NCBI GenBank assembly: GCA_022564055.1
Contig: JADFMD010000003.1
Span: 1 to 64,000, forward strand
Origin: Gemmatimonadota bacterium
Lineage (GTDB): Bacteria; Gemmatimonadota; Gemmatimonadetes; Longimicrobiales; Gaopeijiaceae
Length of the DNA stretch: 64,000 nucleotides
Direction: 5' to 3'
Under the pieces are notes generated by a model. It was given only the letters and a program-made list of their open reading frames with translations, made no database searches and was not told the DNA's origin. Shown piece by piece: positions 30,401 through 63,119 of this stretch. The position numbers and the translations under genes were made by a program. The stretch's first letter is position 1. Each line of letters opens with the position of its first letter.

Positions 30401-30775
30401 TGCCGGGTGGCTCCACCTCCGCGGGACTGGATGAAGGAGCCCGTGCGGAGCGAATGGATTGCCGATCCGCTGGCCTTGGACAGTGGGCTCCAAGCGATGA
30501 TCGTTTGGACCTCCGACCGTGTGGGGGAGTTGTCATTGCCCTCACGGTTCACACGCTATCGCCAGTTCGTGGCCTCGTTCCCCAAGGAGGGAGCCCGCAT
30601 CGTCATAGAGGTTCACGAGCGGACGAACGGCAAGGTCGTTTCCGATATCGATTGGATCGGTGATGACGGAAAATTGCTGGCCCGCCTGGAAGGGTACGAA
30701 TCCATTTTGGACTCTTCCCTGGGCAAGGCGTTCCGTCACAACCGACTCGACGAGAGCGCACCGACGAAGGCGTAA
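24479..30775 (+). CDS. pfaA: PfaA-type PUFA synthase: KS-MAT-ACP-ACP-KR-DH
   Basis: KS DAACASSL; AT GHSYGE; two LGIDSIKRVEIL ACPs; KR TVLITGGARGVTAEV; C-terminal HVLDGHAVLPA DH. TTGA overlap with pfaD. Confidence 0.95.
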   Translation: MSDRKEDRAAAQSPIAIVGMSCLFPGASGLREYWANVRDGVDAITDVPASHWSVGDYFDADPKAPDMTYGRRGGFLDAVDFDPMGFGISPRDLEATDSTQLLGMHVAREALRDAGYGADGREFDRERTSVILGVSGTLPLVIPLGARLGHPIWRQALAEAGVDPETGEDVIARIADGYVPWQENSFPGLLANVVAGRIANRLDLHGTNCIVDAACASSLSAIHLASLELETGRADMVLSGGLDTFNDIFMYMCFSKTPALSASGNAQPFSRDADGTILGEGVGVVALKRLADAERDGDRIYAVIKGMGSSSDGKGQAVYAPSSEGQARALRAAYRNAGVTPDTIGLVEAHGTGTIVGDATEARGLTSVYEDTGREGAWCALGSVKSMIGHTKAAAGAAGLIKAVMALHHKILPPTIKVETPNEAVTPGETPFYVNTEKRPWLSEGDLPRRAGVSAFGFGGSNFHCVLEEYESQATLVDWDGRDQIFAFSAESHETLVSKLKDFDAGSEWEEIRGRAAETREGFDASHEVRLLMVVERDGKSPADLIALALARLEESESAWSLPQGIFFGSGSSRGGWAACFPGQGAQYVGMLRELMCRFPVAAATLAAATEAAPGLADKIFPHPAFDDVRRAEQEAELTATRNAQPALGAVSLGAFRVLEQFGVAPDATCGHSYGELVALCAAGRVSPSELHELSSLRGRLMTLGEGDHGSMLAVAAGSEQIQTLLEKHELDLVIANHNAPRQVVLSGLTDEIHRATDILSGEGIRTKKLPVSAAFHSTLVAGAAEPFAEHVKRVNLKKSAVAVYANATGTRYPATSVAARKVLSKQLASPVDFVQCVKAMFDDGVRTFVEIGPGRRLTGLIKEILADEEITVVAIDASSGQHPGLLDLARTLAQLAAAGHTVALDRWDEGALEAWRHETAREKPALTVKISGANHVTERPKRPPRAAAATGVPMGPPTTAAPVAATPSALDPTAAVGSDPQVLAEAMRASQASLAALVRLQEQTAAVHRQFLESQERTIQAIIQHQGLAAPGEAATTAIPSSPPSEIHTETPVEAPVAALGNAVGEARVASNPDVAAALLSVVSEKTGYPEEMLDLSMGLDADLGIDSIKRVEILAALQERLPEAPAITPEHLGEIQTLGQIVDFLGGPAGPSEPDAPAVDFVTPDPKGADAPTNGVVADPANGASDSADIAAVLLGVVAEKTGYPVDMLDVSMNLDADLGIDSIKRVEILSALQEVLPGAPVVAPDQLGELRTLSQIVDLLSDGAKSVPGSSSPETAGQIERFVPTLHPVQDTGDPIGLPAGSKIWVTKSGDVLSGQIVEELSAQGFAAEEIELCDEGDDPPDELAGLIVVVPPQVTDEDILFGFGRMRAMAPALRRAALQGGALLCSVTALGGGFALDAPPPEDVDPTGGAWGGMLKTAAAEWTDVNCRTIDVDLSREGLAAEIVRHALSRGPVEIGLGPDGPQTVVLEPRPVQPVQGSFPNSDDTVLITGGARGVTAEVAVAMAEAAQPRLILLGRSPEPEKEPDWLIGLNREAEIKRAILTHVGPSITPQEVQAEFNRILAGREIRRTIERISKAGSQVAYRSADVRDEDAVRRTLAPLVEEFGPVTGLVHGAGVLADRNIEDKSDDDFARVYGTKVGGLRSVLKAIGESPLKALVLFSSSTARFGRRGQVDYAAANEVLNKVAQAEAARREGCRVVSVNWGPWDGGMVTPGLKRIFADEGIEVIGMRDGAAYLLDEIATADGPAEVLILGGGSRIPEVGLPPGTVGNGVYASANGAGTVENGAAGIENGAVAPENGAGASFTELPTIFERTISTETHEFMASHVLDGHAVLPAAMTLEWLAHGALHGNPGLRFVGVDDLRIFKGVRVQTNESLRVRICAAKAQKRGEEFHVLAELCSGGSNGRRVLHARANVVLAAKQPDAGAARTSRDLPALDQSIETIYAETLFHGPAMRGLLDIESCGDAGLVARCRVAPPPRDWMKEPVRSEWIADPLALDSGLQAMIVWTSDRVGELSLPSRFTRYRQFVASFPKEGARIVIEVHERTNGKVVSDIDWIGDDGKLLARLEGYESILDSSLGKAFRHNRLDESAPTKA

Positions 30776-30780
30776 CCCGC

Positions 30781-33700
30781 ATGCCCGAGCCGATTGCCAT
30801 CGTCGGACTCGGAGGAGTGCTTCCCGGCGCCCCGACGCTCGACGATTTTTGGAATGTCGTCGAGGCGGGCGTGGACACGGCCTCCGATCCACCGCCCGAC
30901 CGCTGGTGCCTTCATGTCGATCGTGTCTACTCGCGGGATCAGGCACAGCCCGATCGCGTCCACTCTCGACGTGCCTGTTTCATCCGTGATTTTCAACTCG
31001 AAATCCAGGGAATCGACCTCCCCACAGAGTTGGTCGAATCTCTCGATCCCATGGTACACCTGGCACTGCACGCCGGGCGGCAGGCTTGGCATGACGCTGT
31101 AACCGAACCGGTCGATCCCGCACGCGTGGGCGTGATGCTGGGCAACCTCGTCCTCCCCACGGTGTCCGCCTCCGCAATGGCGGACTGGATTCTCGGCCGG
31201 CGTTTCGAGCGAGAACTCTTCCGAGCGGCGGGCGTGCCAACGCCCCCAGAGACCCGGGCACCCGTGGCCGCGATCAACCGTTGGGTCGCGGGCCTACCGG
31301 CGGCAATGCTGGCAAAGGGGTTGGGGCTCGGGGGCGATCGGTTCTGCATCGACGCCGCCTGTTCGTCGTCGCTCTTTACCGTGGAGCTCGCCGTGGACGC
31401 CCTGCGGCAGGGCCGCCTCGACGCGGTCCTCGTCGGAGGGCTTTCACGACCGGATTCGCTTTACACCCAGATGGGTTTCTCGCAGCTGCTTGCGGTCTCG
31501 CCTACGGGCCGGTGCTCTCCGTTCGACCGCAAGAGCGACGGCCTGATCGTGGGCGAGGGAGCCGGAGTGCTAGTCTTGAAGCGCCTGTCGGACGCGCGCC
31601 GCCAGGGCGATCGAGTCCGCGCGGTGATACACTCGGTGGGGCTTTCCAACGATGTTGAAGGCAGTCTCCTCGCTCCCAGCCAAGAAGGCCAGTTGCGCGC
31701 CATGCGGGGGGCCTACACCGCCGCGGGGTGGACCCCGAGCCAGGTAGACATGGTCGAGTGCCACGCGACGGGCACCCCGGTCGGGGATTCCGTCGAGTTC
31801 GCGAGCCTCCAGACACTTTGGGCTGAGGAGCAGTACCAACCCGGCCAGTGTGTGATCGGGTCGGTCAAATCGAATACCGGCCATCTCCTCACGGGAGCGG
31901 GCGCCGTCGGTCTCCTGAAGACCGTGTTGGCGATGGAGAACCGTGTGCTCCCACCCACGGCCAATTACGAGGAACCCGGGGAAAAGATCGAGCTGGATGG
32001 AAGTCCGTTTCGTGTGCTCGCGGCAGCGACTCCGTGGAAGTCTCCGTCCGATCACCCACGCCGGGCCGCGGTCAGCGGGTTCGGATTCGGAGGAACCAAC
32101 GCCCACTTGCTCCTGGAGGAGCCGACCGAGCCGAGCCGGGGAAGGTCGGTGGTGAGTGTCGCAGAGCGACCACGCGCGACGAAGGGCGCAGATGTAGCCA
32201 TCGTCGGGATGGGGGCTCGAATCGGTCCGTGGCGGAACGTTGCCGAGGTCGGCGACCGTTTGATGGGCCGTGGCAAAGATCATCCCGCCCTCGCCAAGGT
32301 GAATCACTGGGGCTTTCCGGACGCACCCGTCGGATGGTTTATCGAGGAGCTCGAGATTCCGGTGGGTCGATTCAAGATCCCTCCCCGGGAGGTCGAAGAG
32401 GCCCTTCCCCAACAGATGCTCATGCTTCAGATAGCAGAGCAAGCCATTGCCGACGCCGACCTCAGCGAGGTCGACCGCCTCCGGACCGGTGTCTTCATCG
32501 GGGTCGAACTCGACCTCAACACCACGAACTACCACCTCCGTTGGGCCGCGCGGTCACGTGCGGCCGATTGGGCGCAGCGACTCGGGCGTCCCTCGCACGG
32601 TGAAACGTTCGAGGGGTGGGTCGACGAACTCTGCGATTCGCTCGCACCCGCGCTCAACGCGAACCGAACCATTGGCGGGCTGGGTTCGATCGCGGCCAGC
32701 CGTATCGCCCGGGAGTTCGGGCTGGGTGGACCCAGCTACGTGATATCGAGCGAGGAGACGTCCGGCCTCTCGGCCCTCCAGGCCGCCTCGCGCGCGCTCC
32801 GACAGGGTCGTATCGACTGCGCCATCGTCGGAGCCGTCGACCTGGCGGGGGATATACGTTCCCTGATCTCGCTCGAGAGCACAGACGGTTTAGCCACGCC
32901 AGACGATTCCCGGGCCGCCGGCGGACCCTCGGCGGGGATCGTACCGAGCGATGGCGCCGTCGCGCTCGTGTTGAAGCGCAAAGAGGACGCCGAGCGTGAC
33001 GGCGACCGTGTGTACGCGGTCGTCCGGGCGATCGGGACCGCCGGCGGCGGCCCGAGCGCTCCCCCTGCAGATTCCGGCGAATCGGAGTCTTCAGTCCGCG
33101 AAGCGATTCGCAGAGGCTGTGAAGAGGCCGACGTCGCCGCGCGCGACATCCCCTACGTGGAGACGCACGGTTGCGGGATCCCAGGTCGGGCCAGGGCAGA
33201 AATGATCGCCCTTTCCGAGGCCTTCGGGCCGGACACCGTGCTCGGTTCCATCGAGGCGCATGTCGGGCACACCGGGGCGGCAGCCGGCCTCCTTTCGGTA
33301 CTGGGCGCCACACTTTCGTTGTACCGGCAAGTCCTGCCCACGGCCCCCGGACACAGCGACACGGGGCGCAACCCGCGGGGCGACCCCACACCCTGGGTGC
33401 GCGATCGGGTCGATGGGCCGCGGCGGAGCGGCGCACTCGCGGTCTCACGCGGCGAATCGTGCTCCTACGTGATTCTGGAGGAGCCCCAACCCGAGGCCAC
33501 ACCCAAGTCCCCAAGACCGGCAGCCAACGAGCGGTCGGAGGCCTGGCGCGGCGATCTTCCGCTGAATGAAGGCCTTTTCGTCGTCGAGGGAGACGAAGTC
33601 GCGCAAATCGTGGCGGACCTACGGGCACTTGCGGATGGGGCCCCCAACTTGGCGGCCGACGCTCCCGCCAACTCCGCGACCGGCACAGCCCCCGAAGCCA

Positions 33701-36700
33701 CCACCGGAAACGCCGGGAACAACACCTCCGAAACCACCGCCGACACGGTGGGGCTAGGGGCGATCCACCGACTCGCCAAGGAGAGGTGGGAAGCCCATCC
33801 CGGCCGTTCCGACGCCCGGCTCGCCGTCACTTTGATCGTCCGAGATGCCAGCGAACTCAGGGCACTTTGCCGGTCCACAGCAGACCAGCTCGAGCGAGGG
33901 GACGACCCATCGGACCGGAGCGCCGGCCGGGTGTTTTTCTCGCCGGACCCGCTCGGACCCAAAGGAGAGCTGGCCTTCGTCTACCCCGGATCGGGAAGCC
34001 AATATGCCGGAATGGGACGCGAACTGTGCCTCCAATGGCCCGAGATTCTTCGCGCCCAGGACCGTGCGAACGAGCGCCTGGGTTCGCAGCTCCAGGCCGC
34101 CGAGATCTGGGGGTCCGGTCCGGACGTCAGCGACGTCCGGACCGTAATTCTCTCCCAGGTCACTCTCAGCACGATCACCACGGACCTCATGGCCGGCTTC
34201 GGCGTTCGCCCCGATGCGGTCGTGGGCTACTCCCTCGGTGAGACTGCCGGACTGGTCTCGCTGGGCGCGTGGCATGACCGGGATGAGATGCTACGACGCG
34301 TGACGGAGAGCGAGTTGTTCGTCAGCGATTTGACGGGACGCTGTAACGCCGCGCGTAAAGCCTGGGGCGTCGCGGATGACGCCGACGTGGATTGGAGCGT
34401 GGGCGTGGTCGAGACGCCCGCCGATCGGGCACGTGAGGTCGTCGAGGCGCTCGACCGGGTTTATTTGCTCATCGTAAACACGCCGGACGAGTCTGTGATC
34501 GGAGGCGAGCGCTCGACGGTCGAGAGAGCGGTCGAGAAGCTGGGATGTCCCTTCCACGCCCTGGAGGGCGTCCCGACGGTCCACTGCGACGTGGCGGAAG
34601 AGGTATCGGAGGCCTACCGCAACTTTCATCTGTTGGACACCCGCCCGCCGGAGGGTGTGCGTTTCTACAGCGGAGCGTGGGGCGAAGCGTACGAGGTGAA
34701 TCAGGATCGGGCGGCAGATTCTCTCCTGGCCCAGGCGATCCAGGGGGTGGATTTCCCCAAGACGGTGCAACGAGCTTATGACGACGGCGTGAGAATCTTT
34801 TTGGAGATGGGCCCGGGCGGATCTTGTTCCCGGATGATCCACAAGATTCTCGACGGCGTCCCGTTTCGGGCACGCTCGATTTCTTCCGCCACCCAGGATG
34901 AGCCCACCGCGGTCCTCCGAGCACTCGGGATGCTCATCGCGGAGCGCGTCCCGGTCGACCTGGCGCAGCTTTACCCGGAGGGCAGCCCCGTGGAGGACGA
35001 GTCAGGCCCAGTCACCCGAATTCGGGTCGGCCAAGAAAGCTTTGGCCCTTTGCCGCTTGCTTCGCCATCCCCGATCGGTCCCTCGTTCCCGCTCGCTTCT
35101 CTATCCCCCATCGATTCTCCCTCCTCGATCGCTTTCCCATCGTCGATCCCTTCAGCTTTGGGCGGTGAGAACGTCTCGCCTGAACTGACCGAAGCCGTCC
35201 GGGCCGCCGAGAACACGATCCGGGCTCACGAAGCGTTCCTTCGAACCGCGCAACGGACCCAGGAGCTCGCTCAGGGCGAGTACGCCAGGCAGCAAGAGCT
35301 GATTCGGGCCCTTACGGGTGATGGCACTGCGCTCGCCCCGCTTCCTGCGCGTACGATCGCGATGGATCGGGACCAGCTCATGGAGTTCGCAGTGGGATCG
35401 ATCGGACGGGCCCTCGGAGAGCGCTTCGCTCACGCGGACGAACACCCGACCCGGGTTCGTCTTCCGGACGAACCGCTCATGCTCGTCGACCGTGTCACCA
35501 TGATCGAGGCCGAGCCGCTATCGATGACGTCCGGGCGGATCGTCACCGAACACGACGTTCTCGCGGATGGGTGGTATCTCGACGGCGGACGACTTCCCAC
35601 CTGCATTGCCGTGGAGGCAGGCCAAGCCGATCTCCTTCTTTCCGGCTACTTGGGGATCGACTCAGAGACCCAGGGGCTCGCCGTCTATCGGCTTCTCGAT
35701 GCCGTGGTCACCTTCCACTCCGAGCTGCCGCGTCCGGGGCAAGTCATCCGATACGACATCCACATACTCCGGTTCTTCCGCCAGGGCGACACCTGGCTTT
35801 TCCGCTTCAAGTTCGACGCCACCGTGAACGGCCGGCTGCTCCTGACCATGCGCGAGGGTACGGCTGGATTTTTTACTCAGGCAGAGCTCGATGCCGGTAA
35901 GGGAATCGTCCGAAGTGCCATCGACGAACAGGAGCTGGCGGGAGTCCGGCCCGAAGATTGGCGTGAGCTGGTACCCATCGGGAAGGATGCTTTTGACGAA
36001 GAACGGCTGGGGGCACTTCGTGCGGGTGATCTGGTCGGTGCGTTCGGAGAGGTTTTCTCGGGTCTGCCTGTGACCCGCGCGCTGACGATCCCGGGAGATC
36101 GCATGCGGCTGGTCCACCGCGTGACCGAGCTCGATCCCGAGGGAGGGCGGTACGGAATCGGCAGTATCGTGGCGGAAGCCGACATTCAACCCGACGACTG
36201 GTTCCTGACCTGCCATTTCTCCGACGACCAGGTGATGCCAGGCACACTGATGTATGAATGCTGTCTGCACACGCTCCGAATTTTTCTCCTGCGCGTCGGG
36301 TGGATCGCAGAAGCGGACAGCGCGACGTGGCAGCCCATCGTGGACGTCAGGAGCCGGCTTCGGTGCCGGGGCCAGGTGCTCGCCTCCACCATGAAGGTTA
36401 CCTACGAGATCCATCTGCGTGAGCTGGGCTATCGGCCGGAGCCGTACGCGATCGCCGACGCGCTCATGTACGCCGACGGAAAACCGGTGGTAGAGATCCG
36501 CGACATGTCCGTCCGTCTGACCGGCACCGACCGACAGAGGCTCGAGAAGATGTGGGCGGCCCGCGGTGAGACAGGGGATTCGACCCTCGGAGAGCCAGCA
36601 AGATCGACCGACAGAGGAGCGTCCACAACCGGAACGCGTATCCTCTACGACAAGGAAAGCATCCTCGCGTTCGCCGGCGGAAAACCCTCCGAGGCCTTCG

Positions 36701-37767
36701 GAGCACCGTACCGCGTCTTCGATGAAGGAGACCGACGCATCGCACGGCTGCCCCGTCCTCCCTACCAATTCCTGGATCGCATTTCGGCCGTAGAGGGAGA
36801 GCCGTTCGTGATGCGAACCGGCGCGAGCGTCACCGCCCACTTCGACGTGCGTCCGGATCATTGGTACTTCGGGAGCAACCGCCAGAGCGAAATGCCGTTT
36901 TCGATCCTCCTCGAAGTCGCGCTTCAGCCGTGCGGATGGCTGGCGGCGTATGTAGGATCGGCTTTGACATCCGACCAGAATCTTCGATTCCGCAATCTCG
37001 GGGGAGACGCGATCCAGTTGGCGCGGCTCACCGCCTCCGAGGACATGATCACGACACGGGTCGGTCTGACGGGGGTTTCGGCCTCGGGCGGCATGATCAT
37101 CCAGCACTACACCATGGCTCTGGAGAGCGAACGCCTCGGGCCCCTCTATGAGGGCACGACCTACTTCGGTTTCTTCTCGGACAAGGCCCTGGCGGATCAG
37201 GTCGGCATCCTCGACGCACCCATTCACGAGCCCACGCCCGCCGAGAGGGAGAGGGGCCGTAGCCTGGTCATGCCGCACACCCCACCCTTACCCGAACCAC
37301 GGTTCCGCATGGTCGACCAGATCGACCTCCTCGTGGCCGACGGGGGTGCCGCCGGGTTGGGGTGGGTTCACGGTTCGATCGCGGTCGATCCGAGCATGTG
37401 GTTTTTCGAGGCGCACTTCTACCAGGACCCGGTGTGGCCCGGCTCGCTGGGCCTCGAGGCCTTCATTCAGTTACTCAAGGTCTACGCCGTCGACCGGTGG
37501 GACCTGGGTGAAGGCACGGAGTTCGCGACGATGGCCAGGGAGGAATCCGCCGGTCCAGAGCCGGCCGGTGGAGAGAGCCCCGCTGCAGGCCGGCATCGCT
37601 GGACGTACCGGGGACAGATCATTCCGGGTTGCGAGCGGGTAGAGGTCTTCGCCAGCATCACGGAGGTGGACGACGTACGGAAGCGCCTGCGGGCCGACGG
37701 CTTTCTCAAGGTGGACGGCCGAACCATCTATACGATGAACGATTTCAGCCTGGATGTGATCGCTTGA
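30781..37767 (+). CDS. PfaB/PfaC-type hybrid PUFA synthase: KS-CLF-AT-(FabA-like hotdog)x4
   Basis: KS DAACSSSL; second KS-like domain with the Cys position replaced (YVISSEETSGLSAL); AT GYSLGE; four hotdog segments (PLMLVDRV, MRLVHRV, YQFLDRI, FRMVDQI). Confidence 0.93.
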   Translation: MPEPIAIVGLGGVLPGAPTLDDFWNVVEAGVDTASDPPPDRWCLHVDRVYSRDQAQPDRVHSRRACFIRDFQLEIQGIDLPTELVESLDPMVHLALHAGRQAWHDAVTEPVDPARVGVMLGNLVLPTVSASAMADWILGRRFERELFRAAGVPTPPETRAPVAAINRWVAGLPAAMLAKGLGLGGDRFCIDAACSSSLFTVELAVDALRQGRLDAVLVGGLSRPDSLYTQMGFSQLLAVSPTGRCSPFDRKSDGLIVGEGAGVLVLKRLSDARRQGDRVRAVIHSVGLSNDVEGSLLAPSQEGQLRAMRGAYTAAGWTPSQVDMVECHATGTPVGDSVEFASLQTLWAEEQYQPGQCVIGSVKSNTGHLLTGAGAVGLLKTVLAMENRVLPPTANYEEPGEKIELDGSPFRVLAAATPWKSPSDHPRRAAVSGFGFGGTNAHLLLEEPTEPSRGRSVVSVAERPRATKGADVAIVGMGARIGPWRNVAEVGDRLMGRGKDHPALAKVNHWGFPDAPVGWFIEELEIPVGRFKIPPREVEEALPQQMLMLQIAEQAIADADLSEVDRLRTGVFIGVELDLNTTNYHLRWAARSRAADWAQRLGRPSHGETFEGWVDELCDSLAPALNANRTIGGLGSIAASRIAREFGLGGPSYVISSEETSGLSALQAASRALRQGRIDCAIVGAVDLAGDIRSLISLESTDGLATPDDSRAAGGPSAGIVPSDGAVALVLKRKEDAERDGDRVYAVVRAIGTAGGGPSAPPADSGESESSVREAIRRGCEEADVAARDIPYVETHGCGIPGRARAEMIALSEAFGPDTVLGSIEAHVGHTGAAAGLLSVLGATLSLYRQVLPTAPGHSDTGRNPRGDPTPWVRDRVDGPRRSGALAVSRGESCSYVILEEPQPEATPKSPRPAANERSEAWRGDLPLNEGLFVVEGDEVAQIVADLRALADGAPNLAADAPANSATGTAPEATTGNAGNNTSETTADTVGLGAIHRLAKERWEAHPGRSDARLAVTLIVRDASELRALCRSTADQLERGDDPSDRSAGRVFFSPDPLGPKGELAFVYPGSGSQYAGMGRELCLQWPEILRAQDRANERLGSQLQAAEIWGSGPDVSDVRTVILSQVTLSTITTDLMAGFGVRPDAVVGYSLGETAGLVSLGAWHDRDEMLRRVTESELFVSDLTGRCNAARKAWGVADDADVDWSVGVVETPADRAREVVEALDRVYLLIVNTPDESVIGGERSTVERAVEKLGCPFHALEGVPTVHCDVAEEVSEAYRNFHLLDTRPPEGVRFYSGAWGEAYEVNQDRAADSLLAQAIQGVDFPKTVQRAYDDGVRIFLEMGPGGSCSRMIHKILDGVPFRARSISSATQDEPTAVLRALGMLIAERVPVDLAQLYPEGSPVEDESGPVTRIRVGQESFGPLPLASPSPIGPSFPLASLSPIDSPSSIAFPSSIPSALGGENVSPELTEAVRAAENTIRAHEAFLRTAQRTQELAQGEYARQQELIRALTGDGTALAPLPARTIAMDRDQLMEFAVGSIGRALGERFAHADEHPTRVRLPDEPLMLVDRVTMIEAEPLSMTSGRIVTEHDVLADGWYLDGGRLPTCIAVEAGQADLLLSGYLGIDSETQGLAVYRLLDAVVTFHSELPRPGQVIRYDIHILRFFRQGDTWLFRFKFDATVNGRLLLTMREGTAGFFTQAELDAGKGIVRSAIDEQELAGVRPEDWRELVPIGKDAFDEERLGALRAGDLVGAFGEVFSGLPVTRALTIPGDRMRLVHRVTELDPEGGRYGIGSIVAEADIQPDDWFLTCHFSDDQVMPGTLMYECCLHTLRIFLLRVGWIAEADSATWQPIVDVRSRLRCRGQVLASTMKVTYEIHLRELGYRPEPYAIADALMYADGKPVVEIRDMSVRLTGTDRQRLEKMWAARGETGDSTLGEPARSTDRGASTTGTRILYDKESILAFAGGKPSEAFGAPYRVFDEGDRRIARLPRPPYQFLDRISAVEGEPFVMRTGASVTAHFDVRPDHWYFGSNRQSEMPFSILLEVALQPCGWLAAYVGSALTSDQNLRFRNLGGDAIQLARLTASEDMITTRVGLTGVSASGGMIIQHYTMALESERLGPLYEGTTYFGFFSDKALADQVGILDAPIHEPTPAERERGRSLVMPHTPPLPEPRFRMVDQIDLLVADGGAAGLGWVHGSIAVDPSMWFFEAHFYQDPVWPGSLGLEAFIQLLKVYAVDRWDLGEGTEFATMAREESAGPEPAGGESPAAGRHRWTYRGQIIPGCERVEVFASITEVDDVRKRLRADGFLKVDGRTIYTMNDFSLDVIA

Positions 37768-38843
37768 GATATACCCGTGTTGTCATCGAGACCTTCGGAT
37801 ACGAGCTCGCTCCGTGCGTGGTCACGTCCGACGAATTGGAGGAGCGGCTCGCCCCGGTATACGAAAAGCTCCACATCCAGCCGGGCCAGCTCTTCCAGAT
37901 GACCGGCGTAAAGGAGCGCCGCTATTGGGACCCTGGGTATACGGTATCGCAGGGCGCCACCGCGGCGGCAGAAAACGCACTCCGTGAATCGCCCGTGCCG
38001 GCCGACGCCATCGACATGTTGATCTACGGAGGCGTGTGCCGCGAGCACTTCGAGCCGGCCACAGCCTGTCACGTCGCGGCCGGCCTCCAAACAGCCGGCC
38101 ACGCGATTCCCCCCTCCGCCCATGTCTACGACGTCGGCAACGCGTGCCTGGGCGTGCTGAACGGCATACTCGATATCGCCAACCGAATCGAGTTGGGGCA
38201 GATCCGAGCGGGCATGGTGGTCAGTTGCGAGACCGCACGAGGCATCGTCGACGCAACCATCATCCGGTTGACCAACAATCCCGTCATGGAGGAGTTCAAG
38301 ACCTCCATCGCCACGCTAACCGGAGGGTCGGCCGCGGTAGCCGTGATTCTGAGTGACGGGTCCTTCGGGGAGTCCGACCGGCGGCGCCTCCGCGGTGCCG
38401 TGGTCGAAAACGCGCCCGAACATCACATGCTGTGCCGCTGGGGCCTGGAAGCCCACCCCGATGGTCAGCCGAACGGAGCCGAAGCGACTCTGAGGGAGTT
38501 TGCCAGCACCGATGCGGCCGCCGTCCTCGAGCACGGAGTCGCCCTGGGCGCACGTACCTGGGAAAAGTTCCTCGAGGAGATGGAGTGGCCTTTGGAGGAC
38601 GTGGACCGCACCGTATGCCACCAGGTCGGTTCCGCCCATCGGGACGTCATGCTGCGAACCATGGGCCTGTCCCCTCAACAGGACTTCGTGACCTATGAAT
38701 ACCTGGGAAACACCGGTACGGCCGCCCTCCCCGTAGCCGCCGCGCTGGCCCACGAACGCGGGTTCTTGGAGCCCGGCCACCGCGTGGGACTCCTCGGCAT
38801 CGGCAGTGGTTTGAACTGCATCATGCTCGGGGTGGACTGGTGA
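37764..38843 (+). CDS. oleA: OleA, thiolase-fold head-to-head condensing enzyme
   Basis: TTG start in TTGA overlap with the preceding stop; YDVGNACLGVLNGILDIANRI and GGVCREHFEPATA motifs; followed by oleBCD. ORF-track start 37629 lies inside the pfaBC frame. Confidence 0.92.
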   Translation: MRYTRVVIETFGYELAPCVVTSDELEERLAPVYEKLHIQPGQLFQMTGVKERRYWDPGYTVSQGATAAAENALRESPVPADAIDMLIYGGVCREHFEPATACHVAAGLQTAGHAIPPSAHVYDVGNACLGVLNGILDIANRIELGQIRAGMVVSCETARGIVDATIIRLTNNPVMEEFKTSIATLTGGSAAVAVILSDGSFGESDRRRLRGAVVENAPEHHMLCRWGLEAHPDGQPNGAEATLREFASTDAAAVLEHGVALGARTWEKFLEEMEWPLEDVDRTVCHQVGSAHRDVMLRTMGLSPQQDFVTYEYLGNTGTAALPVAAALAHERGFLEPGHRVGLLGIGSGLNCIMLGVDW

Positions 38844-39862
38844 GCCGGCTCTACCCGTTCGCTCCGAACTACATCGAGGTAGGTGGTCGCTCCGCCGCTG
38901 CCGGCACATCCGAAGGCGGCACGTCCGAGGGCGTCGCCCACCGCATGCACTACGTGGATGAAGGCCAGGGAGACCCGGTGCTCATGGTCCACGGAAACCC
39001 GAGTTGGTCCTTCTACTACCGGGATCTGATCAGCGCGTTGAAGTCGAGTCACCGGGTGATCGCACCGGACCACATCGGGTGTGGGCGCTCCGACAAACCG
39101 AATGACGACCACTACGACTACACGTTATCGACCCGCGTGGCGGACCTCGGCACGCTCATCGACTCGCTCGACCTCCGTGACATCACGCTGGTCGTGCACG
39201 ACTGGGGCGGCATGATCGGGATGGCCTGGGCGGCCCAGCACCCCGATCGCATCGCGAGGGTCATCGTCATGAACACCGCCGCGTTTCCTCTACTGACCGG
39301 CAAGAACCTCCCCGCCTCGCTCGCGCTGGCGCGGACCCCCGGTATGGGGGCATTGCTCGTGCGCGGGGCCAACGCTTTCTCGCGGGGCGCGGTGCGCCAC
39401 TGTGTGACGCGCCGGCCGATGTCCAAGGAGGTGGCCGCCGGTTACCTGGAGCCGTACGACAGTTGGGCGCACCGGATCGCCGTGCATCGTTTCGTGCAGG
39501 ATATTCCGCTCGAAGAGAACGATCGGGCCTACCCGATCGCGAAGGAAACCGCGGACGCTCTCGTTCGCTTGGTCGACAAGCCGATGTTGATCTGCTGGGG
39601 CCTCCGGGATTTCGTATTCGGCCACCAATTCCTGGACGAGTGGATCGACCGATTCCCGGGTGCCGAGGTGCATCGCTTCGAAGACTGCGGGCACTATGTC
39701 CTGGAGGACGCGGCGGATGAGATCATTCCGCTCGTCCGCAATTTCATCGATGCTCCTTCGGGAGGACACCGCGACGGTCCTCCTGAAAGCCATTCGCACG
39801 GTCGGCCCGGGAGTCACCCGGACGGTCACCCCGAACCCCAGCCGACCGACAGTTCGGTATGA
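38840..39862 (+). CDS. oleB: OleB, alpha/beta hydrolase-fold beta-lactone decarboxylase
   Basis: MHYVDEGQGDPVLMVHGNPSWSFYYRDLI, VVHDWGGMIGMAWA, CGHYVLEDA; haloalkane-dehalogenase-like fold in an ole context. Confidence 0.92.
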   Translation: MSRLYPFAPNYIEVGGRSAAAGTSEGGTSEGVAHRMHYVDEGQGDPVLMVHGNPSWSFYYRDLISALKSSHRVIAPDHIGCGRSDKPNDDHYDYTLSTRVADLGTLIDSLDLRDITLVVHDWGGMIGMAWAAQHPDRIARVIVMNTAAFPLLTGKNLPASLALARTPGMGALLVRGANAFSRGAVRHCVTRRPMSKEVAAGYLEPYDSWAHRIAVHRFVQDIPLEENDRAYPIAKETADALVRLVDKPMLICWGLRDFVFGHQFLDEWIDRFPGAEVHRFEDCGHYVLEDAADEIIPLVRNFIDAPSGGHRDGPPESHSHGRPGSHPDGHPEPQPTDSSV

Positions 39863-41703
39863 GCGGAGAAGGCGACGGTGCGACCGCGGAAACGGGGCCA
39901 CCTGCCGGAGCCGACGCCGCGCCAGAGCGCTCCCCCGAACACATCAATGTCGCCGCCTTTCTAGTCGACCTGGCCCGCAGCCAGCCGGACGCGCTCGCGG
40001 TGGCGGTCTCCGACGGCCGGAACCCGGACGGATCGGCCCGCTATTCCGAACTGACCGCACTCGAGTTGCATCGTCGCTCCGACCGCATCGCCCATGCACT
40101 GGTGGGCGTCGGAATAGGGCCGGGCGTTCGGACCGTCCTCATGGTGGAGCCCAGCCTCGCGTTCTTCTCGTTGACGTTTGCGATGCTCAAGGTCGGAGCG
40201 ATCCCGGTCCTGGTGGATCCGGGCATGGGAATCAAGAATTTGGGGGAGTGCCTTCGCGAAGCAGAACCAGAGGCCTTTATCGGTGTCCCCAAGGCGCAGG
40301 CCGCGAGAGTCTTTTTCGGCTGGGCGAGGCAGACGGTCAGGACCAAGATTACCGTAGGGCACAGATTGTTCTGGGGGGGGCACACCCTGAGCAATTTGGA
40401 GGCGAAAGCGTCGCCGGACCCCTTCCCGATTCTCGAGCCCGACCCCGAGCAAACCGCCGCAATCCTGTTCACGAGCGGGAGCACCGGCGTGCCCAAGGGG
40501 GTCGTCACCCCGTTTCGGGTTTTCGCGGCCCAGGTGAAGGCGCTCAGAGAGGTATACGGCATCCAGCCGGGGGAGCGAGACCTGGCGACTTTTCCCCTCT
40601 TCGCGCTTTTCGGTCCGGCCCTCGGCATGGCTTCGGTGGTCCCCGACATGGACGCGAGTCGGCCGGCGGAGGCCGACCCGCAGCGTCTCTTCGAGGCGTT
40701 CCGGGACTACGCGTGCACCAATCTTTTCGCCTCACCGGCCCTCATCGACAAGCTGGGACGCTACTGCGTCGATCACGGCCATCGGTTGACCTCGCTTCGG
40801 CGAGCCATCTCGGCGGGGGCCCCGGCATCGAACCCGGCGCTCGAGCGCTTCCAACAGTGTCTCCCGGACGGCATCGAGGTCCTGACCTCCTACGGAGCGA
40901 CCGAGGCCCTTCCGGTGTCCGTTCTCGGAAGCAGAGAAATCCTGCGAGAGACGCGACGGCTCACGGACCAGGGCGGCGGCGTGTGCGTGGGTCGCCCCAC
41001 ACCCGGCATGGAAGTGCGGATCGTGCCGATCCATGACGACCCGATCGAGTCATGGACGGACGACCTTCCTCTCCCACCAGGAGAGATCGGCGAGATCGTT
41101 GTGCGGGGCGCGGTCGTGACACCGTCCTATTACCAGCGGCCCCTGGCGACGAAGCTCGCCAAGATTCCCACCTCGAGTGGAGATGTATGGCACCGCATGG
41201 GCGATGTCGGCTATTTCGATGAGCAGGGCCGGCTTTGGATGTGTGGCCGAAAGGGCCACCGCGTGGATGCCGAGACGGGGACGATGTACACGATCCCCTG
41301 TGAGGCCGTTTTCAACACGCACCCGGCCGTTCGGCGAAGCGCCCTGGTGGGCGTCGCAGGAGTGGGCAAAACGGCGAGGGGGCGCAGAGTCGTGGGAGCG
41401 GGCCGGACCACGAGCGAAGCCGACCCCGCGCACCGGGGTCATACGACGCCGCTGATCTGCGTAGAGCGGGTGCCGGAAGCTACGATTGGCAATGGGCAAC
41501 TCACGAAAGAGTTGCTGGAAATCGCCCGGAGCCACGAGCACACCCGGGCGATCGACATGGTGCTCTACCACCCCGCCTTTCCCGTGGACGTTCGGCACAA
41601 CGCGAAGATCTTCCGGGAGAAGCTCGCGGTGTGGGCAGAGAAGCAGTTGGCGTCCCGCCGGAGCCGTGGTCCGACCTCCGGACAGCCGGACAACCGCTCA
41701 TGA
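39859..41703 (+). CDS. oleC: OleC, ANL-superfamily beta-lactone synthetase
   Basis: ILFTSGSTGVPKGV; FPLFALFGPALGMASVVPDMDASRPA; ATGA overlap with oleB. Confidence 0.92.
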   Translation: MSGEGDGATAETGPPAGADAAPERSPEHINVAAFLVDLARSQPDALAVAVSDGRNPDGSARYSELTALELHRRSDRIAHALVGVGIGPGVRTVLMVEPSLAFFSLTFAMLKVGAIPVLVDPGMGIKNLGECLREAEPEAFIGVPKAQAARVFFGWARQTVRTKITVGHRLFWGGHTLSNLEAKASPDPFPILEPDPEQTAAILFTSGSTGVPKGVVTPFRVFAAQVKALREVYGIQPGERDLATFPLFALFGPALGMASVVPDMDASRPAEADPQRLFEAFRDYACTNLFASPALIDKLGRYCVDHGHRLTSLRRAISAGAPASNPALERFQQCLPDGIEVLTSYGATEALPVSVLGSREILRETRRLTDQGGGVCVGRPTPGMEVRIVPIHDDPIESWTDDLPLPPGEIGEIVVRGAVVTPSYYQRPLATKLAKIPTSSGDVWHRMGDVGYFDEQGRLWMCGRKGHRVDAETGTMYTIPCEAVFNTHPAVRRSALVGVAGVGKTARGRRVVGAGRTTSEADPAHRGHTTPLICVERVPEATIGNGQLTKELLEIARSHEHTRAIDMVLYHPAFPVDVRHNAKIFREKLAVWAEKQLASRRSRGPTSGQPDNRS

Positions 41704-42719
41704 AGGCGCTGGTGACGGGAGCGGGCGGCTTCCTCGGAGGAGCCATCGCCCGGACCCTCCGTGACCGGGGGGATGAGGTCAGAGGTTTCTCCCGTGGATC
41801 CCACCCGGAGCTGGCCGCCTATGGCATCGAGCACCAACGGGGAGATGTGGCGGAGCTCGACGCGGTGACCGACGCGACCCGTGGCGTCGATGTCGTGTTC
41901 CACACGGCGGCGAAGGTGGGGGCGGGAGGCCGGTACGTAGACTTCTACGATACGAACGTCACGGGGACTGCAAACGTGCTCACGGCCTGCCGGGAATGCG
42001 GCGTGCGGGCGCTCGTCTACACCTCCACGCCGAGCGTGCTTTCCGGCGTCACGGATCTGGAAGGTGTCGATGAGTCGGAGGGCTACGCCACGCGTTACGA
42101 GGCGGACTACGGCCGGACCAAGGCGGAGGCCGAGCGCCTGGTTCTCTCCTCGACCTCCAAGGAATTCAAGGTGGTCGCACTCCGCCCCCCCCTCATCTGG
42201 GGCCCCGGCGACACGTCTCTGCTGCCCCGTGTGATCGAGAGGGGAAGGAACGGCGCACTCCGACGCATCAATGGGCCGCCCAAGCGGCAGGATATCACCT
42301 ATATCGATGACGCGGTGGAGGCCCATTTGATCGCCGGGGATCTTCTCCTAAGCGGGGGGGAGGGAGCCCGCCGCATCAATGGCCGCCCCTACTTCGTGAG
42401 TTCTGGCGAGCCCGTGGAGATCTGGGACTTCATCGATGGGCTCCTCGAGGCCGCTGGGGTGCCGCCGGTTCGGAAGACGGTGTCGCTGCGAACCGCGCTA
42501 GCGGTGGGCTGGCTTTTCGAGAAGGCGCACGCACTCTCGCGGGCGCAGGGCGATCCACGGATGAGCCGTTGGATGGTACGCCAACTCACGAGCTCGCGTT
42601 GGTTCGACATCAGCGCCGCGCGGCGGGATCTCGGATACGAGCCGCAGGTGTCCCTGGAGGATGGCATGCGCCGCCTGAAGGCATGGATAGAGGAGCGGGA
42701 AAAGGAGCCACGTGGCTGA
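41700..42719 (+). CDS. oleD: OleD, NAD(P)H-dependent 2-alkyl-3-ketoacid reductase (SDR)
   Basis: MKALVTGAGGFLGGAIARTLRDRGDEV; ATGA overlap with oleC; start 41700 preferred over 41631. Confidence 0.92.
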   Translation: MKALVTGAGGFLGGAIARTLRDRGDEVRGFSRGSHPELAAYGIEHQRGDVAELDAVTDATRGVDVVFHTAAKVGAGGRYVDFYDTNVTGTANVLTACRECGVRALVYTSTPSVLSGVTDLEGVDESEGYATRYEADYGRTKAEAERLVLSSTSKEFKVVALRPPLIWGPGDTSLLPRVIERGRNGALRRINGPPKRQDITYIDDAVEAHLIAGDLLLSGGEGARRINGRPYFVSSGEPVEIWDFIDGLLEAAGVPPVRKTVSLRTALAVGWLFEKAHALSRAQGDPRMSRWMVRQLTSSRWFDISAARRDLGYEPQVSLEDGMRRLKAWIEEREKEPRG

Positions 42720-56481: not shown

Positions 56482-57984
56482 TCAACGATCCACAACCCCA
56501 GGAGCGCCGGCCATTGCGAGCAGGGACTCGATCATCCCTTCATCGCCGTAGATTTCAGGCACCCCGGAGACCGGTACCCCTGCGGAACGCGCAGCATCAG
56601 CCGTCGTCGGTCCAACACAGAAGATCTGCACGCCCTCGAGGTCCACCCCGGACGAAGCCAGTGACGTCGCCGCAGAAGGGCTGTACAGAAGCACCGCATC
56701 CACGCCCCTCCTGAACGCGTCCAACGCGGCGTCACTCGGCGGCTGGAGCAGCGTGTCGTACACATGGAGGGTTTCAACTTCCAACCCCAACCGAGTCAAT
56801 CCGTGGGAAACCTCGTCTACCGCGAGCGTTCCGCACGGGAAGAGTACCCGCTCGCCGCTGCTCGCCTCGACCCCGATCGCCTCCACGAGAGCCCGGGCTC
56901 GATGCTCTTCTGGAATCAGATCGGCACGGATCCCCACACCTTTCAGGCCGGCCGCCGTCTTGGGACCGACCGCGGCGATGCGAGTAGCCCCGAAAAAGCG
57001 GGCGTCGAGTCCCTGACGCTCGATTTGCCGGATGAGCCCTTCGACGCCGTGGAGGGACGTGAACACCATCCAATCGTGGTCGGAGCGGGGCACCGAGATC
57101 TGCGCCTCCAGGTACTCGATACGGATCAGCGGTGAGTCGATCACCTCCGCGCCGAGCCCTCGGAGCTTAGAAATGACCTGCCTGCTCGCGAAGGAGGGTC
57201 GGGTCACGACCACTCGGCAGCCGGCCAGGGGCCCGAAGCCCAAGGCTGGTGTATTTCCGTCGAGCCGGGGCAATCCGGCGCCCGGACCCACGATAAGCAC
57301 CATCGGCGCCCGCAGACCCGCGTCGAGGACCACGCCCGCGATGGAGGCAAGGGTCCCCCGGACCTGACGCTCCCCTGGGAGCGTGCCCTCTTGAACGACC
57401 GCGGCGGGGGTCGCGCTGTCCCGGCCTGCCGCAATCAGGCCCTTCGTCACCTCCTCCAGCTTAGCGCCGCCCATGAGCACCACCGCGGTGTCCAACTTCG
57501 CCATGGCGTCGTACGGAAGGTCACGAGCCGGAAGGCCCTTTCCGACGCTCGGCGTCACGATACTCACCGTGCTCGCCTGTCCGCGCAGCGTGAGCGGGAT
57601 GCCCGCGGCGGCCGGCACGCCGGTCGCGCTACTCACGCCTGGAACCACCTCACAGGGGATGCCGGCCAGACAGCAGGCCTCGATCTCTTCCCATCCCCGG
57701 CCATAGATGAAGGGATCACCGCCCTTCAGACGAACCACCTCCTTACCGGCCCGGGCCCGCTCGATCAAAACCTCGTGGATCCAGTCCTGACCCACCGTGT
57801 GCTGACCGGGCGCCTTGAAGACGTCGATCAGCTCGGCATCGGACTTCGTGAGGGTCAAGAGCTCCGCACCGGCGAGCCGATCATACACGACCACATCGGC
57901 CCGTCCGAGAAGCGCTTGTCCCCGAACGGTGATGAGCCCCGCGTCTCCGGGCCCCGCACCGACCAGCCACACCCGACCGGTCAA
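56482..57984 (-). CDS. Uroporphyrinogen-III C-methyltransferase fused to uroporphyrinogen-III synthase (CobA-HemD)
   Basis: SUMT: GRVWLVGAGPGDAGLITVRG, VVRLKGGDPFIYGRG, EVVPGVSSATGVPAAAGIPLT; C-terminal HemD-like domain. Likely TTG start (TTGA overlap with the preceding stop). Confidence 0.9.
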   Translation of the reverse strand: MTGRVWLVGAGPGDAGLITVRGQALLGRADVVVYDRLAGAELLTLTKSDAELIDVFKAPGQHTVGQDWIHEVLIERARAGKEVVRLKGGDPFIYGRGWEEIEACCLAGIPCEVVPGVSSATGVPAAAGIPLTLRGQASTVSIVTPSVGKGLPARDLPYDAMAKLDTAVVLMGGAKLEEVTKGLIAAGRDSATPAAVVQEGTLPGERQVRGTLASIAGVVLDAGLRAPMVLIVGPGAGLPRLDGNTPALGFGPLAGCRVVVTRPSFASRQVISKLRGLGAEVIDSPLIRIEYLEAQISVPRSDHDWMVFTSLHGVEGLIRQIERQGLDARFFGATRIAAVGPKTAAGLKGVGIRADLIPEEHRARALVEAIGVEASSGERVLFPCGTLAVDEVSHGLTRLGLEVETLHVYDTLLQPPSDAALDAFRRGVDAVLLYSPSAATSLASSGVDLEGVQIFCVGPTTADAARSAGVPVSGVPEIYGDEGMIESLLAMAGAPGVVDR

Positions 57985-58850
57985 GGTACCGAGGGTAATC
58001 CGGCTCGCAGGGGCACAGGTACAGACATGGCCGCCCGCAAGCGCGCCCGCCCCGCCCGCCCGCGCCAAAACCCGCGGCTCGGACCGAGCGAAGCGGGGAT
58101 CCGTGTTGCCAAATCGATCGCTTCGAGGGTGAGCGAGGCCAGCTCCGGCCACTCCAAGATCGGCGGTAGGATCTTCAGGTTCTGCGGAAGGATCTCGAGG
58201 CGGCCTGGCACAGGGCTGGGCTCCGTGCACGTTCGGTGTTCGGTCAGAGCTTTTTCAAGATCCACGAGAACATGTGGCCCACCGCCCAGGAGCAGCGGAA
58301 CCGCCACGACCGGGCGATCGCCGAGTGAGCCCGCAACGTCCGAAAGGAAGGGAGATTCATCGAGGAAAGCGGTGAGAATCTCCGTTCGGGGAAAGGTGAG
58401 CGCCATTTCGTCCCGAACCCATCGAGCCGCCTCCCCGCTCGAACGAACTCGGGTGGTGCCATGCCCCACGAGCAGGACGACTGGACTCAGTCCGCGTTGG
58501 TTCATGGCCGTCACCGCTTCGCCCACCTTGGTCGCCAGGACCCGAGGGAATGCGGGAAGTGTGCCGATGGGAGAGGTAATCACGAACGAACGCGACGGGT
58601 CTCCCTTCGCCCACTCCTCGGGCAGGCGTCGCCGGGCGTAGTACCCGGCGCTCGCCATGATCGGCACCACCACGGGGCGCTGCCCCCTCGAGCTACGGGC
58701 CGCATCCTCGAAGCTCGGCGTGCCCTTCCAAAACGCACACCCGAAGCGAACCCCCGGCCTCCGTGCCCGCAGCGCATCCGCCAACTCCAGGACCCTCCGG
58801 TTGGCCTCCGAGCCGTCGCCGGCGCCGTGCGCCGCGAGAATCACGCTCAT
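57981..58850 (-). CDS. Sirohydrochlorin chelatase (CbiX/SirB family)
   Basis: MSVILAAHGAGDGSEANRRVLELADALR...VVLLVGHGTTR; two-lobed CbiX-like sequence adjacent to cobA-hemD and sulfite reductase. Confidence 0.8.
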   Translation of the reverse strand: MSVILAAHGAGDGSEANRRVLELADALRARRPGVRFGCAFWKGTPSFEDAARSSRGQRPVVVPIMASAGYYARRRLPEEWAKGDPSRSFVITSPIGTLPAFPRVLATKVGEAVTAMNQRGLSPVVLLVGHGTTRVRSSGEAARWVRDEMALTFPRTEILTAFLDESPFLSDVAGSLGDRPVVAVPLLLGGGPHVLVDLEKALTEHRTCTEPSPVPGRLEILPQNLKILPPILEWPELASLTLEAIDLATRIPASLGPSRGFWRGRAGRARLRAAMSVPVPLRAGLPSVP

Positions 58851-58868
58851 GACATAGCCTCGATAGGA

Positions 58869-59504
58869 CTAACCGGCCGCCGAGCGAGCTCCGCTCACCA
58901 GCTCTTCGAGAGTCCACTCACCCTCGCCCACCACCCTCATGTGGAGCGTGAGCGGCCCCCGCGCGTGACCGACCCTTTCAAACTCGACCGGGGCGTCGCC
59001 GTAGAGGCCCGCCAACACCTTTTCCAGTTCAGGGGTGACCTCTTCGAACGCGGCGTCCGTCGCCGGCACAGCAAGACGATCCGTAAAACGAAAGACCATC
59101 TCCCGCGTCACGAACCGCACGGGGTTGTCTCCGGCTGTATCCTGCTCGAGTGCGGCGGCAGCCTCGAGCAGGCTTGCAACCGCCTCGCCGAGACGCTCGG
59201 AAAGAGTCCCAGACGCCTCTCTCTTCATTTCGTACTCGAGCCCGATACGGCCACCCGCTTCGTCCGTGCGGAGGTGCCACTCATGAGCGATCAGAAGGAC
59301 TCCGGGCCCTTCCTGGACATGGGTGTAATCATGTACGTCGACCAGCGTCCCCGGGAGACGGTCCTCCTGAATCCAACGGTGGAACACCTCGATCATCCGG
59401 GCCCGGTCGAACGCCTCCTGATCCTCGACGAAAAGCTTCACCCCGACCCTTTGGGGCGCTGAAAGGACCCGAGACCGCACGTCCGGAGCCACCTGCGTGC
59501 TCAT
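58869..59504 (-). CDS. Protein of unknown function in the sulfite-reductase operon
   Basis: 211 aa; ATGA overlap with sir; no motif recognised. Confidence 0.75.
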   Translation of the reverse strand: MSTQVAPDVRSRVLSAPQRVGVKLFVEDQEAFDRARMIEVFHRWIQEDRLPGTLVDVHDYTHVQEGPGVLLIAHEWHLRTDEAGGRIGLEYEMKREASGTLSERLGEAVASLLEAAAALEQDTAGDNPVRFVTREMVFRFTDRLAVPATDAAFEEVTPELEKVLAGLYGDAPVEFERVGHARGPLTLHMRVVGEGEWTLEELVSGARSAAG

Positions 59505-61873: not shown

Positions 61874-62572
61874 CTACGTCAGGCCGTGTAAACCGCATTC
61901 CAGGCGTTCGATCCCCCTCCACCTCCCGGCCCGCTCGTGCTCCTCCTCGGAAACGGGCGTGGTCAGAGGCTGGTCGCCGAGGCTCAGGTAGCCCATGTCG
62001 TGGAGCGGGTTGTACGGCACGTCATTTGCGCGGATGAACGACCACACCTCGTCGGCCGACCAGGACGCCACAGGGTTGACCTTGATACGATCCCCGATTT
62101 CCACGTGGGCCAAATGGGAGCGGCTGTCCGACTGGTCACGGCGCCGCCCGGTGATCCACCCCTCCACCCCACGGAGGGCTCGTTTCATTGGCTCGACCCG
62201 CGTGAGTCGATGGAAGAGCTCCAGGTCACGTTCCCACAACCGCTCCCCGTACCTCTCCTCGAACTCCTCACGCGAAGGAGCGGGACGGTAGACCCGTACC
62301 GCCAGGCCATAGTGTGCTTTCACACGCTCGGCATGCTCCAGCGTCTCGGGGAAGTGGTACAGCGTGTCCACGAACACTACGGGCACCTCAGGAGCGATCT
62401 CCGCCAGAAGGTGAAGATTTACCATCCCGGTAGCCCCGAACGAAGAAGCGACGATCAGCCGCCCGGGCGCCACATTTTCGACCGCCCACCGAATCGCCTC
62501 CGAAGGATGCGCTCCCTCAAACCGTTCGTTGAGCAGTTTTACGTCTTCGATTCCCGCTGTCGCTGCGGTCAT
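61874..62572 (-). CDS. cysH: Phosphoadenylyl-sulfate reductase (CysH)
   Basis: LIVASSFGATGMVNLHLLAEIAPEVPVVFVDTLYHFPET; GWITGRRRDQSDSR; C-terminal ERLECGLH. Lacks the CC pair of assimilatory APS reductases. Confidence 0.92.
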   Translation of the reverse strand: MTAATAGIEDVKLLNERFEGAHPSEAIRWAVENVAPGRLIVASSFGATGMVNLHLLAEIAPEVPVVFVDTLYHFPETLEHAERVKAHYGLAVRVYRPAPSREEFEERYGERLWERDLELFHRLTRVEPMKRALRGVEGWITGRRRDQSDSRSHLAHVEIGDRIKVNPVASWSADEVWSFIRANDVPYNPLHDMGYLSLGDQPLTTPVSEEEHERAGRWRGIERLECGLHGLT

Positions 62573-62626: not shown

Positions 62627-62657
62627 AAAAAAAACCGCGACCCTCGAGGGGCGGCGG
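62627..62657 (-). terminator. Intrinsic terminator downstream of Cys-leader 2
   Basis: Minus strand CCGCCGCCC-CTCGA-GGGTCGCGG followed by TTTTTTTT. Confidence 0.8.
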
Positions 62658-62682
62658 CGTTCGCAGGAGTCTTCGTTTCTCG

Positions 62683-62760
62683 TCAACGACTCGTAGGAAC
62701 GCGCCCCTCTCTAGGCGTGACCGTACAGCAACACCAACACAGGCCCGTCTGTTGAGTCAT
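62683..62760 (-). CDS. Cys-rich leader peptide 2
   Basis: ATG ACT CAA CAG ACG GGC CTG TGT TGG TGT TGC TGT ... TGA = MTQQTGLCWCCCTVTPREGRVPTSR; between cysH and Cys-leader 1. Confidence 0.75.
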   Translation of the reverse strand: MTQQTGLCWCCCTVTPREGRVPTSR

Positions 62761-62854
62761 CTCGAAAAATTCCTGATTTCTATGGAACCGCACGTTTCAA
62801 ATACCTCGTCCTGATTTGTTGGTCCTCCTACCGCTGTTCCTGCCCGTTCCCTAT

Positions 62855-62884
62855 AAAAAGAGCCCCCAGGAAAAACCCGGTGGC
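62855..62884 (-). terminator. Second terminator downstream of Cys-leader 1
   Basis: Minus strand GCCACCGGG-TTTTT-CCTGGGGGC-TC-TTTTT; one A/G mismatch, one G.U. Confidence 0.65.
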
Positions 62885-62910
62885 CCTTGGATATTCAAGA
62901 CATTATCCAT

Positions 62911-62939
62911 AAAAAAAGCCACCGAATGTCTCCGGTGGC
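62911..62939 (-). terminator. First terminator downstream of Cys-leader 1
   Basis: Minus strand GCCACCGGA-GACA-TTCGGTGGC followed by TTTTTTT. Confidence 0.85.
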
Positions 62940-62965
62940 GTTTCAGGAATTCTCGTCGCGTATAG

Positions 62966-63037
62966 CTATACGACGTCTCCCCGACACCCCACCGGGCTCG
63001 GACAAGAACATCGACAACAACAACGCTTGAGCATCAT
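62966..63037 (-). CDS. Cys-rich leader peptide 1
   Basis: ATG ATG CTC AAG CGT TGT TGT TGT CGA TGT TCT TGT CCG AGC CCG GTG GGG TGT CGG GGA GAC GTC GTA TAG = MMLKRCCCRCSCPSPVGCRGDVV; AGGA about 12 nt upstream. Confidence 0.8.
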   Translation of the reverse strand: MMLKRCCCRCSCPSPVGCRGDVV

Positions 63038-63091
63038 GAACCGCTTCCTTTTACAACACATCCGCTTTCTCACGCATCCTTCCTACGAACA

Positions 63092-63119
63092 ACGCTAAAC
63101 GCTGGAAGGCCCCTGTCAA
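63092..63119 (-). promoter_or_regulatory. Candidate sigma70-like promoter upstream of Cys-leader 1
   Basis: Minus strand TTGACA, 16 nt, TAGCGT. Confidence 0.4.

Follow-up and report, generated by a model that had tools for sequence, protein, structure and literature searches.

Ribosome-mediated attenuation is classically represented by the trp and his leaders, and the his leader has alternating stems. Leaders with more than one regulatory element have also been described. The leader of the Salmonella mgtCBR operon carries two attenuators in tandem, mgtM and mgtP, the former linked to ATP and the latter to proline (PMC3641672). Homotypic tandem riboswitches, such as those for TPP, are pseudo-cooperative, and in series they are predicted to steepen the dose response (PMC9481103). 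For cysteine, leaders with Cys codons have been described upstream of cysteine genes in Mycobacterium, Propionibacterium and Bifidobacterium, the mycobacterial ones being without conserved terminators (PMC1262725). In the Rhodobacterales, the cysS leader uORFC-8-2 is a Cys leader that ends in an intrinsic terminator (PMC8632094). A search of the open-access literature, with subscription literature mostly outside it, found no homotypic pair of leader peptides and no Cys leader from the Gemmatimonadota.

The locus considered here lies in a 64-kb stretch of DNA from an uncultured Gemmatimonadota bacterium (all 64,000 nt of it are referred to below as the window). A first-pass annotation had placed a promoter-like sequence, a Cys leader, two terminators, a further Cys leader and a third terminator upstream of cysH. 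Reading of the sequence finds all of these parts, in that order and in that place, on the minus strand. The arrangement is best explained, and we think probably correctly, by two Cys attenuators acting in series on one transcript before cysH. The parts and the genes that follow them are these, in the direction of transcription:

63092..63119, minus strand: promoter-like TTGACA-N16-TAGCGT, read directly from the sequence (TTGACA at 63119-63114, TAGCGT at 63097-63092), which would serve the whole leader
62966..63037, minus strand: leader ORF 1, MMLKRCCCRCSCPSPVGCRGDVV and a stop codon; 6 Cys in 23 residues, all TGT; SD-like AAGGAAG 6 nt 5' of the ATG
62989..62996, minus strand: core antiterminator strand of leader 1, CCCGGTGG, predicted from folds; the codons Pro-Val-Gly after the Cys run
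62911..62939, minus strand: terminator T1, GCCACCGGAGACATTCGGTGGC plus T7; hairpin 62939-62918
62855..62888, minus strand: terminator T2, AAGGGCCACCGGGTTTTTCCTGGGGGCTCTTTTT; hairpin 62888-62858, 5' arm GGCCACCGGG
62683..62760, minus strand: leader ORF 2, MTQQTGLCWCCCTVTPREGRVPTSR and a stop codon; 4 Cys in 25 residues, three TGT and one TGC; SD-like site
62697..62709, minus strand: predicted antiterminator strand of leader 2, GAGGGGCGCGTTC; pairs with 62662-62646, overlapping the T3 5' arm
62627..62657, minus strand: terminator T3, CCGCCGCCCCTCGAGGGTCGCGG plus T8; hairpin 62657-62635
61874..62572, minus strand: cysH, (P)APS reductase, first gene of the operon; start 62572; PF01507 (8.7e-49) and NF002537
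59501..61813, minus strand: sulfite/nitrite reductase-type hemoprotein, second gene of the operon; PF01077 and PF03460, two stretches each
56482..59504, minus strand: likely remainder of the operon, comprising a 211-aa ORF, a CbiX/SirB-like gene and a uroporphyrinogen-III methyltransferase/HemD fusion

Domain matches to cysH and a sulfite reductase-type gene place the leader ORFs before genes of the cysteine pathway. Tight spacing and a shared strand make it likely that the genes in 56482..59504 are the rest of the cysH operon. The CbiX/SirB-like and uroporphyrinogen-III methyltransferase/HemD genes are, by their sequence, likely to supply siroheme for the reductase. The 211-aa ORF (58869-59504, minus strand) lies between the sulfite reductase and CbiX-like genes and has no Pfam or NCBIfam match; it is likely to be a member of the sulfate assimilation operon. 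In both leader ORFs the Cys run is the only repeated codon, unlike leaders of the mgtCBR kind with their different signals. No Rfam family reaches its gathering score within the window, and the leader therefore has no known aptamer and is not a tandem riboswitch. In another part of the window (24479-42719, plus strand), the translations resemble two very large PUFA/polyketide synthases, followed by four genes of an OleABCD-type long-chain olefin pathway and then a phosphopantetheinyl transferase.

How might two attenuators work on one transcript? Transcription would begin about 50 nt before leader 1, and the polymerase would then have to pass two independent cysteine checkpoints before reaching cysH. 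At checkpoint 1, low Cys-tRNA would slow a ribosome at the TGT run of leader 1, and CCCGGTGG could then pair with the T1 5' arm. The T1 3' arm freed in this way would capture the 5' arm of T2, and T1 and T2 would both fail. Conversely, a ribosome that has passed the Cys run and reached the leader 1 stop codon would keep CCCGGTGG unpaired, so that T1 would form and T2 would be free to form. Checkpoint 2 would follow equivalent logic, using leader 2, the GAGGGGCGCGTTC strand and T3. On this model the cysH genes would probably be on only if cysteine is short at both checkpoints. Read-through into the operon would be roughly two cysteine-dependent probabilities multiplied together, so that the repressed level would be lower and the response steeper. 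We infer that the leaders are translated and that ribosomes stall in them, as well as how efficiently the terminators work, the cysteine response and the multiplication itself. The sharper response expected of a double leader is theoretical, by analogy with the homotypic tandem riboswitches (PMC9481103).

The terminators and the possible alternative pairings were computed. T1 has 9 bp (-15.1 kcal/mol, z -6.4) and T2 is somewhat more stable (-18.3 kcal/mol, z -3.1). Ribosome positions were represented in equilibrium folds by a footprint that ends 14 nt beyond the first base of the A-site codon. With RNA up to T2 and the ribosome on any of the first three Cys codons of leader 1, the probability of T1 and T2 is 0.00, and with the ribosome at the leader 1 stop codon it is 0.98. 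None of 300 shuffled spacers equals this result. The predicted pairing is a chain, CCCGGTGG with the T1 5' arm and the T1 3' arm with the T2 5' arm, an arrangement similar to the alternating stems in the his leader. CCCGGTGG is complementary to the 5' arms of both T1 and T2 and is invariant in three species of the genus. Across the same species the T2 5' arm is invariant and the T2 3' arm is variable, as would be the case if two different strands pair with the 5' arm. In all three species, partial transcripts are predicted to form the T1-T2 chain when the ribosome is stalled. On the full leader, T2 is still formed at equilibrium with a stalled ribosome in two of them (G002 and G003), and the partial transcript of G003 is predicted to have the T1-T2 pairing even with the ribosome in the stop state.

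T3 is the weakest of the three terminators (-14.7 kcal/mol with flanks; -10.9 and z -1.2 for a shorter fragment), and a simple consensus scan misses it. Folding predicts that GAGGGGC-GCGTTC of leader 2 pairs with GAACGC...GCCCCTC, overlapping T3. At equilibrium the probability of T3 is 0.00-0.06 with the ribosome stalled in leader 2, compared with 0.99 at the stop codon; T3 is also displaced by 9% of shuffled spacers. Leader 2 of this genome has an SD-like site, a start codon, a Cys run, an antiterminator and a terminator with T8, and hence no sign of decay. The leaders and terminators of the first-pass annotation stand, but no antiterminators had been named there, and the folds now predict one for each leader.

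Fold evidence of this type depends on the criterion applied, because most single leaders of the family, with their very stable terminators, do not switch at equilibrium. A different criterion is whether the 5' arm of a terminator pairs upstream in transcripts cut before the 3' arm. At this locus and in the family such pairing mostly does not rise above a GC-rich null, the exception being leader 1 with T2 (1.3%). The folds support switching, short of proof.

Leader 1, T1 and T2 are conserved in each of the three species of the genus with cysH (this genome, G002 and G003). Leader 2 and T3 are intact only in this genome, shortened in G003 and absent in G002, where T2 runs directly into cysH. In G003 a second Cys ORF, MTPKLAMCCCRFGSQSWKTAC, follows T2; the T3 hairpin is deleted and its U-tract flank is retained. 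Alignment of G003 with this genome shows homology in the part from the SD to the Cys codons and again between the T3 U-tract and cysH, with the intervening segment missing, and none of 2000 shuffles reaches the score of either flank. This is most simply read as leader 2 and T3 having been present in the common ancestor with G003. The recognisable flanks in G003 also argue against the tandem being an assembly artefact of a single MAG. A fourth species of the genus, G001 (73% complete), yielded neither a cysH nor a leader match. In G003, from 88 nt upstream of cysH to its start (L004 / L026), the Cys codons of the shortened leader are predicted to pair with and mask the SD and AUG of cysH, and a stalled ribosome to open them. 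This leader may have turned into a translational attenuator after the terminator was lost.

In the wider family, assimilatory sulfate reduction by cysH is patchy, a close cysH being present in 15 of 121 genomes. Among the usable cysH 5' regions of the family, a second Cys ORF occurs only here and, shortened, in G003. In all 11 family genomes outside the genus with usable upstream DNA, one Cys leader and a terminator precede cysH, although the leader of G152 has only two Cys codons and the start codon in G150 is unclear. The upstream DNA of G025 is too short for a judgement. Across the family leaders the Cys run persists while the remaining peptide changes. Outside the family no convincing Cys leader before cysH was found in the sister family or the other phyla examined.

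Where did the two leaders come from? They had been called non-homologous, which holds insofar as neither is a recent copy of the other; however, both resemble the single leaders of related genera. A recent duplication of leader 1 was considered and rejected, leader 1 being no more similar to leader 2 than to other family leaders. A paralogous region as the source of leader 2 was rejected as well, since the genome gave no further DNA match to the region at E<=0.001. In the cysH tree the genus adjoins that of G147-G150 (98/96). By profile scores leader 2 leans to the leaders of the G147-G150 genus (0.4% of shuffles). Of the leader 1 copies, that of G002 leans to leaders from more distant genera (0.2%), and those of G000 and G003 give no match. 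In pairwise tests each leader scores above shuffles against both leader types. That leader 1 is of one type and leader 2 of the other is only suggested by these sequences. Turnover, with leader 1 added and leader 2 being lost, fits the data without being established.

Serial control presupposes one transcript, and the first-pass annotation had named two alternatives, an independent promoter between the leaders and a lack of function in one of them. A second promoter between T2 and leader 2 would put the attenuators on different transcripts, in parallel. There is a weak promoter-like GAGACA-N19-GATAAT (9/12) at T1-T2, and the consensus may not model the promoters of this phylum well. In the putative promoter upstream of leader 1 the -10, TAGCGT, is a poor match to the consensus. 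Nevertheless, the TTGACA and TAGCGT hexamers there are identical in G002 and G003, and several family leaders have similar TTGAC-N17-TAGACT-like sites upstream. With the predicted -10 about 54 nt before the leader 1 ATG, leader 1 would not be leaderless, and it has terminators, unlike the mycobacterial polycysteine sORF; mycobacterial Cys leaders are reportedly leaderless, going by the title of Canestrari 2020 (doi 10.1111/mmi.14498). In this genome no TTGAC was found upstream of leader 2. In G003 the start of leader 2 lies only about 20 nt beyond T2, so that a promoter would have to overlap the terminators. A separate promoter after T2 is therefore unlikely, and we regard parallel control as highly improbable. 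The same two observations, together with a predicted antiterminator and one or more terminators for each leader, support the earlier claim of series attenuation. It is harder still to credit that the terminators are ordinary or independent of translation and the Cys ORFs accidental or small peptides that bind metals or have a redox role. Genes are often preceded by intrinsic terminators, and by strength alone the antiterminators mostly do not exceed the GC-rich null. However, the real 548-nt region has two short ORFs that begin with ATG and have 4 or more Cys within 8 residues, whereas 20,000 dinucleotide shuffles of it gave one such ORF 7 times and two never. The window beyond the leaders has one further such ORF, out of frame inside another gene. 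The recurrence in the family of a Cys leader and terminator before cysH, with diverged sequences, and the constancy of the Cys run within changing peptides, also argue against accident. Codon choice in the leaders is distinct as well: TGT makes up 55 of 74 Cys codons (74%) across the family leaders (L002-L024), compared with 34% in 30 window genes, where TGC predominates (94/143). In this genome the pattern TGTTGYTGYN{0,24}TGY has 45 matches, none of them another leader-like one with a terminator, although the pattern misses leader 2 itself.

What if only checkpoint 1 works? In this scenario leader 2 and T3 would be dispensable or decaying remains of an older leader being replaced by leader 1, and the tandem would be transitional. 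Leader 1, T1 and T2 are present in three species, whereas G002 has lost leader 2 entirely and G003 has kept only parts of it. Since neither sister species has leader 2 and T3 intact, the unit is possibly redundant or on its way out here too. The leader type scores, although weak, point in the same direction, since the model of the single leaders in the sister genus picks up leader 2 and that of the distant genera picks up leader 1 of G002, and the cysH tree sets the sister genus with the leader-2-like leader beside this one. However, each leader scores above shuffles against both types, and in this genome leader 2 is complete, from its SD-like site and Cys run to its antiterminator and T8 terminator. 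We consider a single working checkpoint unlikely, if far from negligible, and retain two attenuators in series as the preferred reading. A fuller version of the serial reading would make this a homotypic serial leader-peptide pair with a pseudo-cooperative cysteine response, a domino antiterminator acting on T1 and T2, and leader turnover in the genus by way of a tandem intermediate (an intact pair here, a shortened one, perhaps a translational switch, in G003 and a single leader in G002). We would put this combination at somewhat less than an even chance.

If the serial reading is correct, the three close species, which carry two, one and a half, and one attenuator, make up a natural series in which to measure what a second checkpoint does to leakiness and steepness. 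The same series suggests how attenuators get replaced in evolution. Serial switches for the same signal are known for riboswitches, and no described case with leader peptides was found. The locus would also bring cysteine attenuation of the kind that uses intrinsic terminators to cysH of the Gemmatimonadota, for which no earlier description was found. The actinobacterial and Rhodobacterales Cys leaders differ in that they are described as single and belong to other phyla, and cysS is another gene (PMC1262725, PMC8632094). The mgtCBR leader is alike in having two short ORFs and two serial attenuators, but its stem-loops are unlike intrinsic terminators and its signals differ (PMC3641672), whereas here both ORFs are Cys-rich and there are three intrinsic terminators. 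Tandem TPP-type riboswitches (PMC9481103) share two full switches, one signal and a serial arrangement; here the ribosome would be the sensor and there is no aptamer. The trp and his leaders are alike in the ORF with codons of the pathway's amino acid, the overlapping antiterminator, predicted here, the intrinsic terminator and the biosynthetic operon. The difference is that here there would be two complete attenuators for one amino acid, with leader 1 governing two chained terminators.
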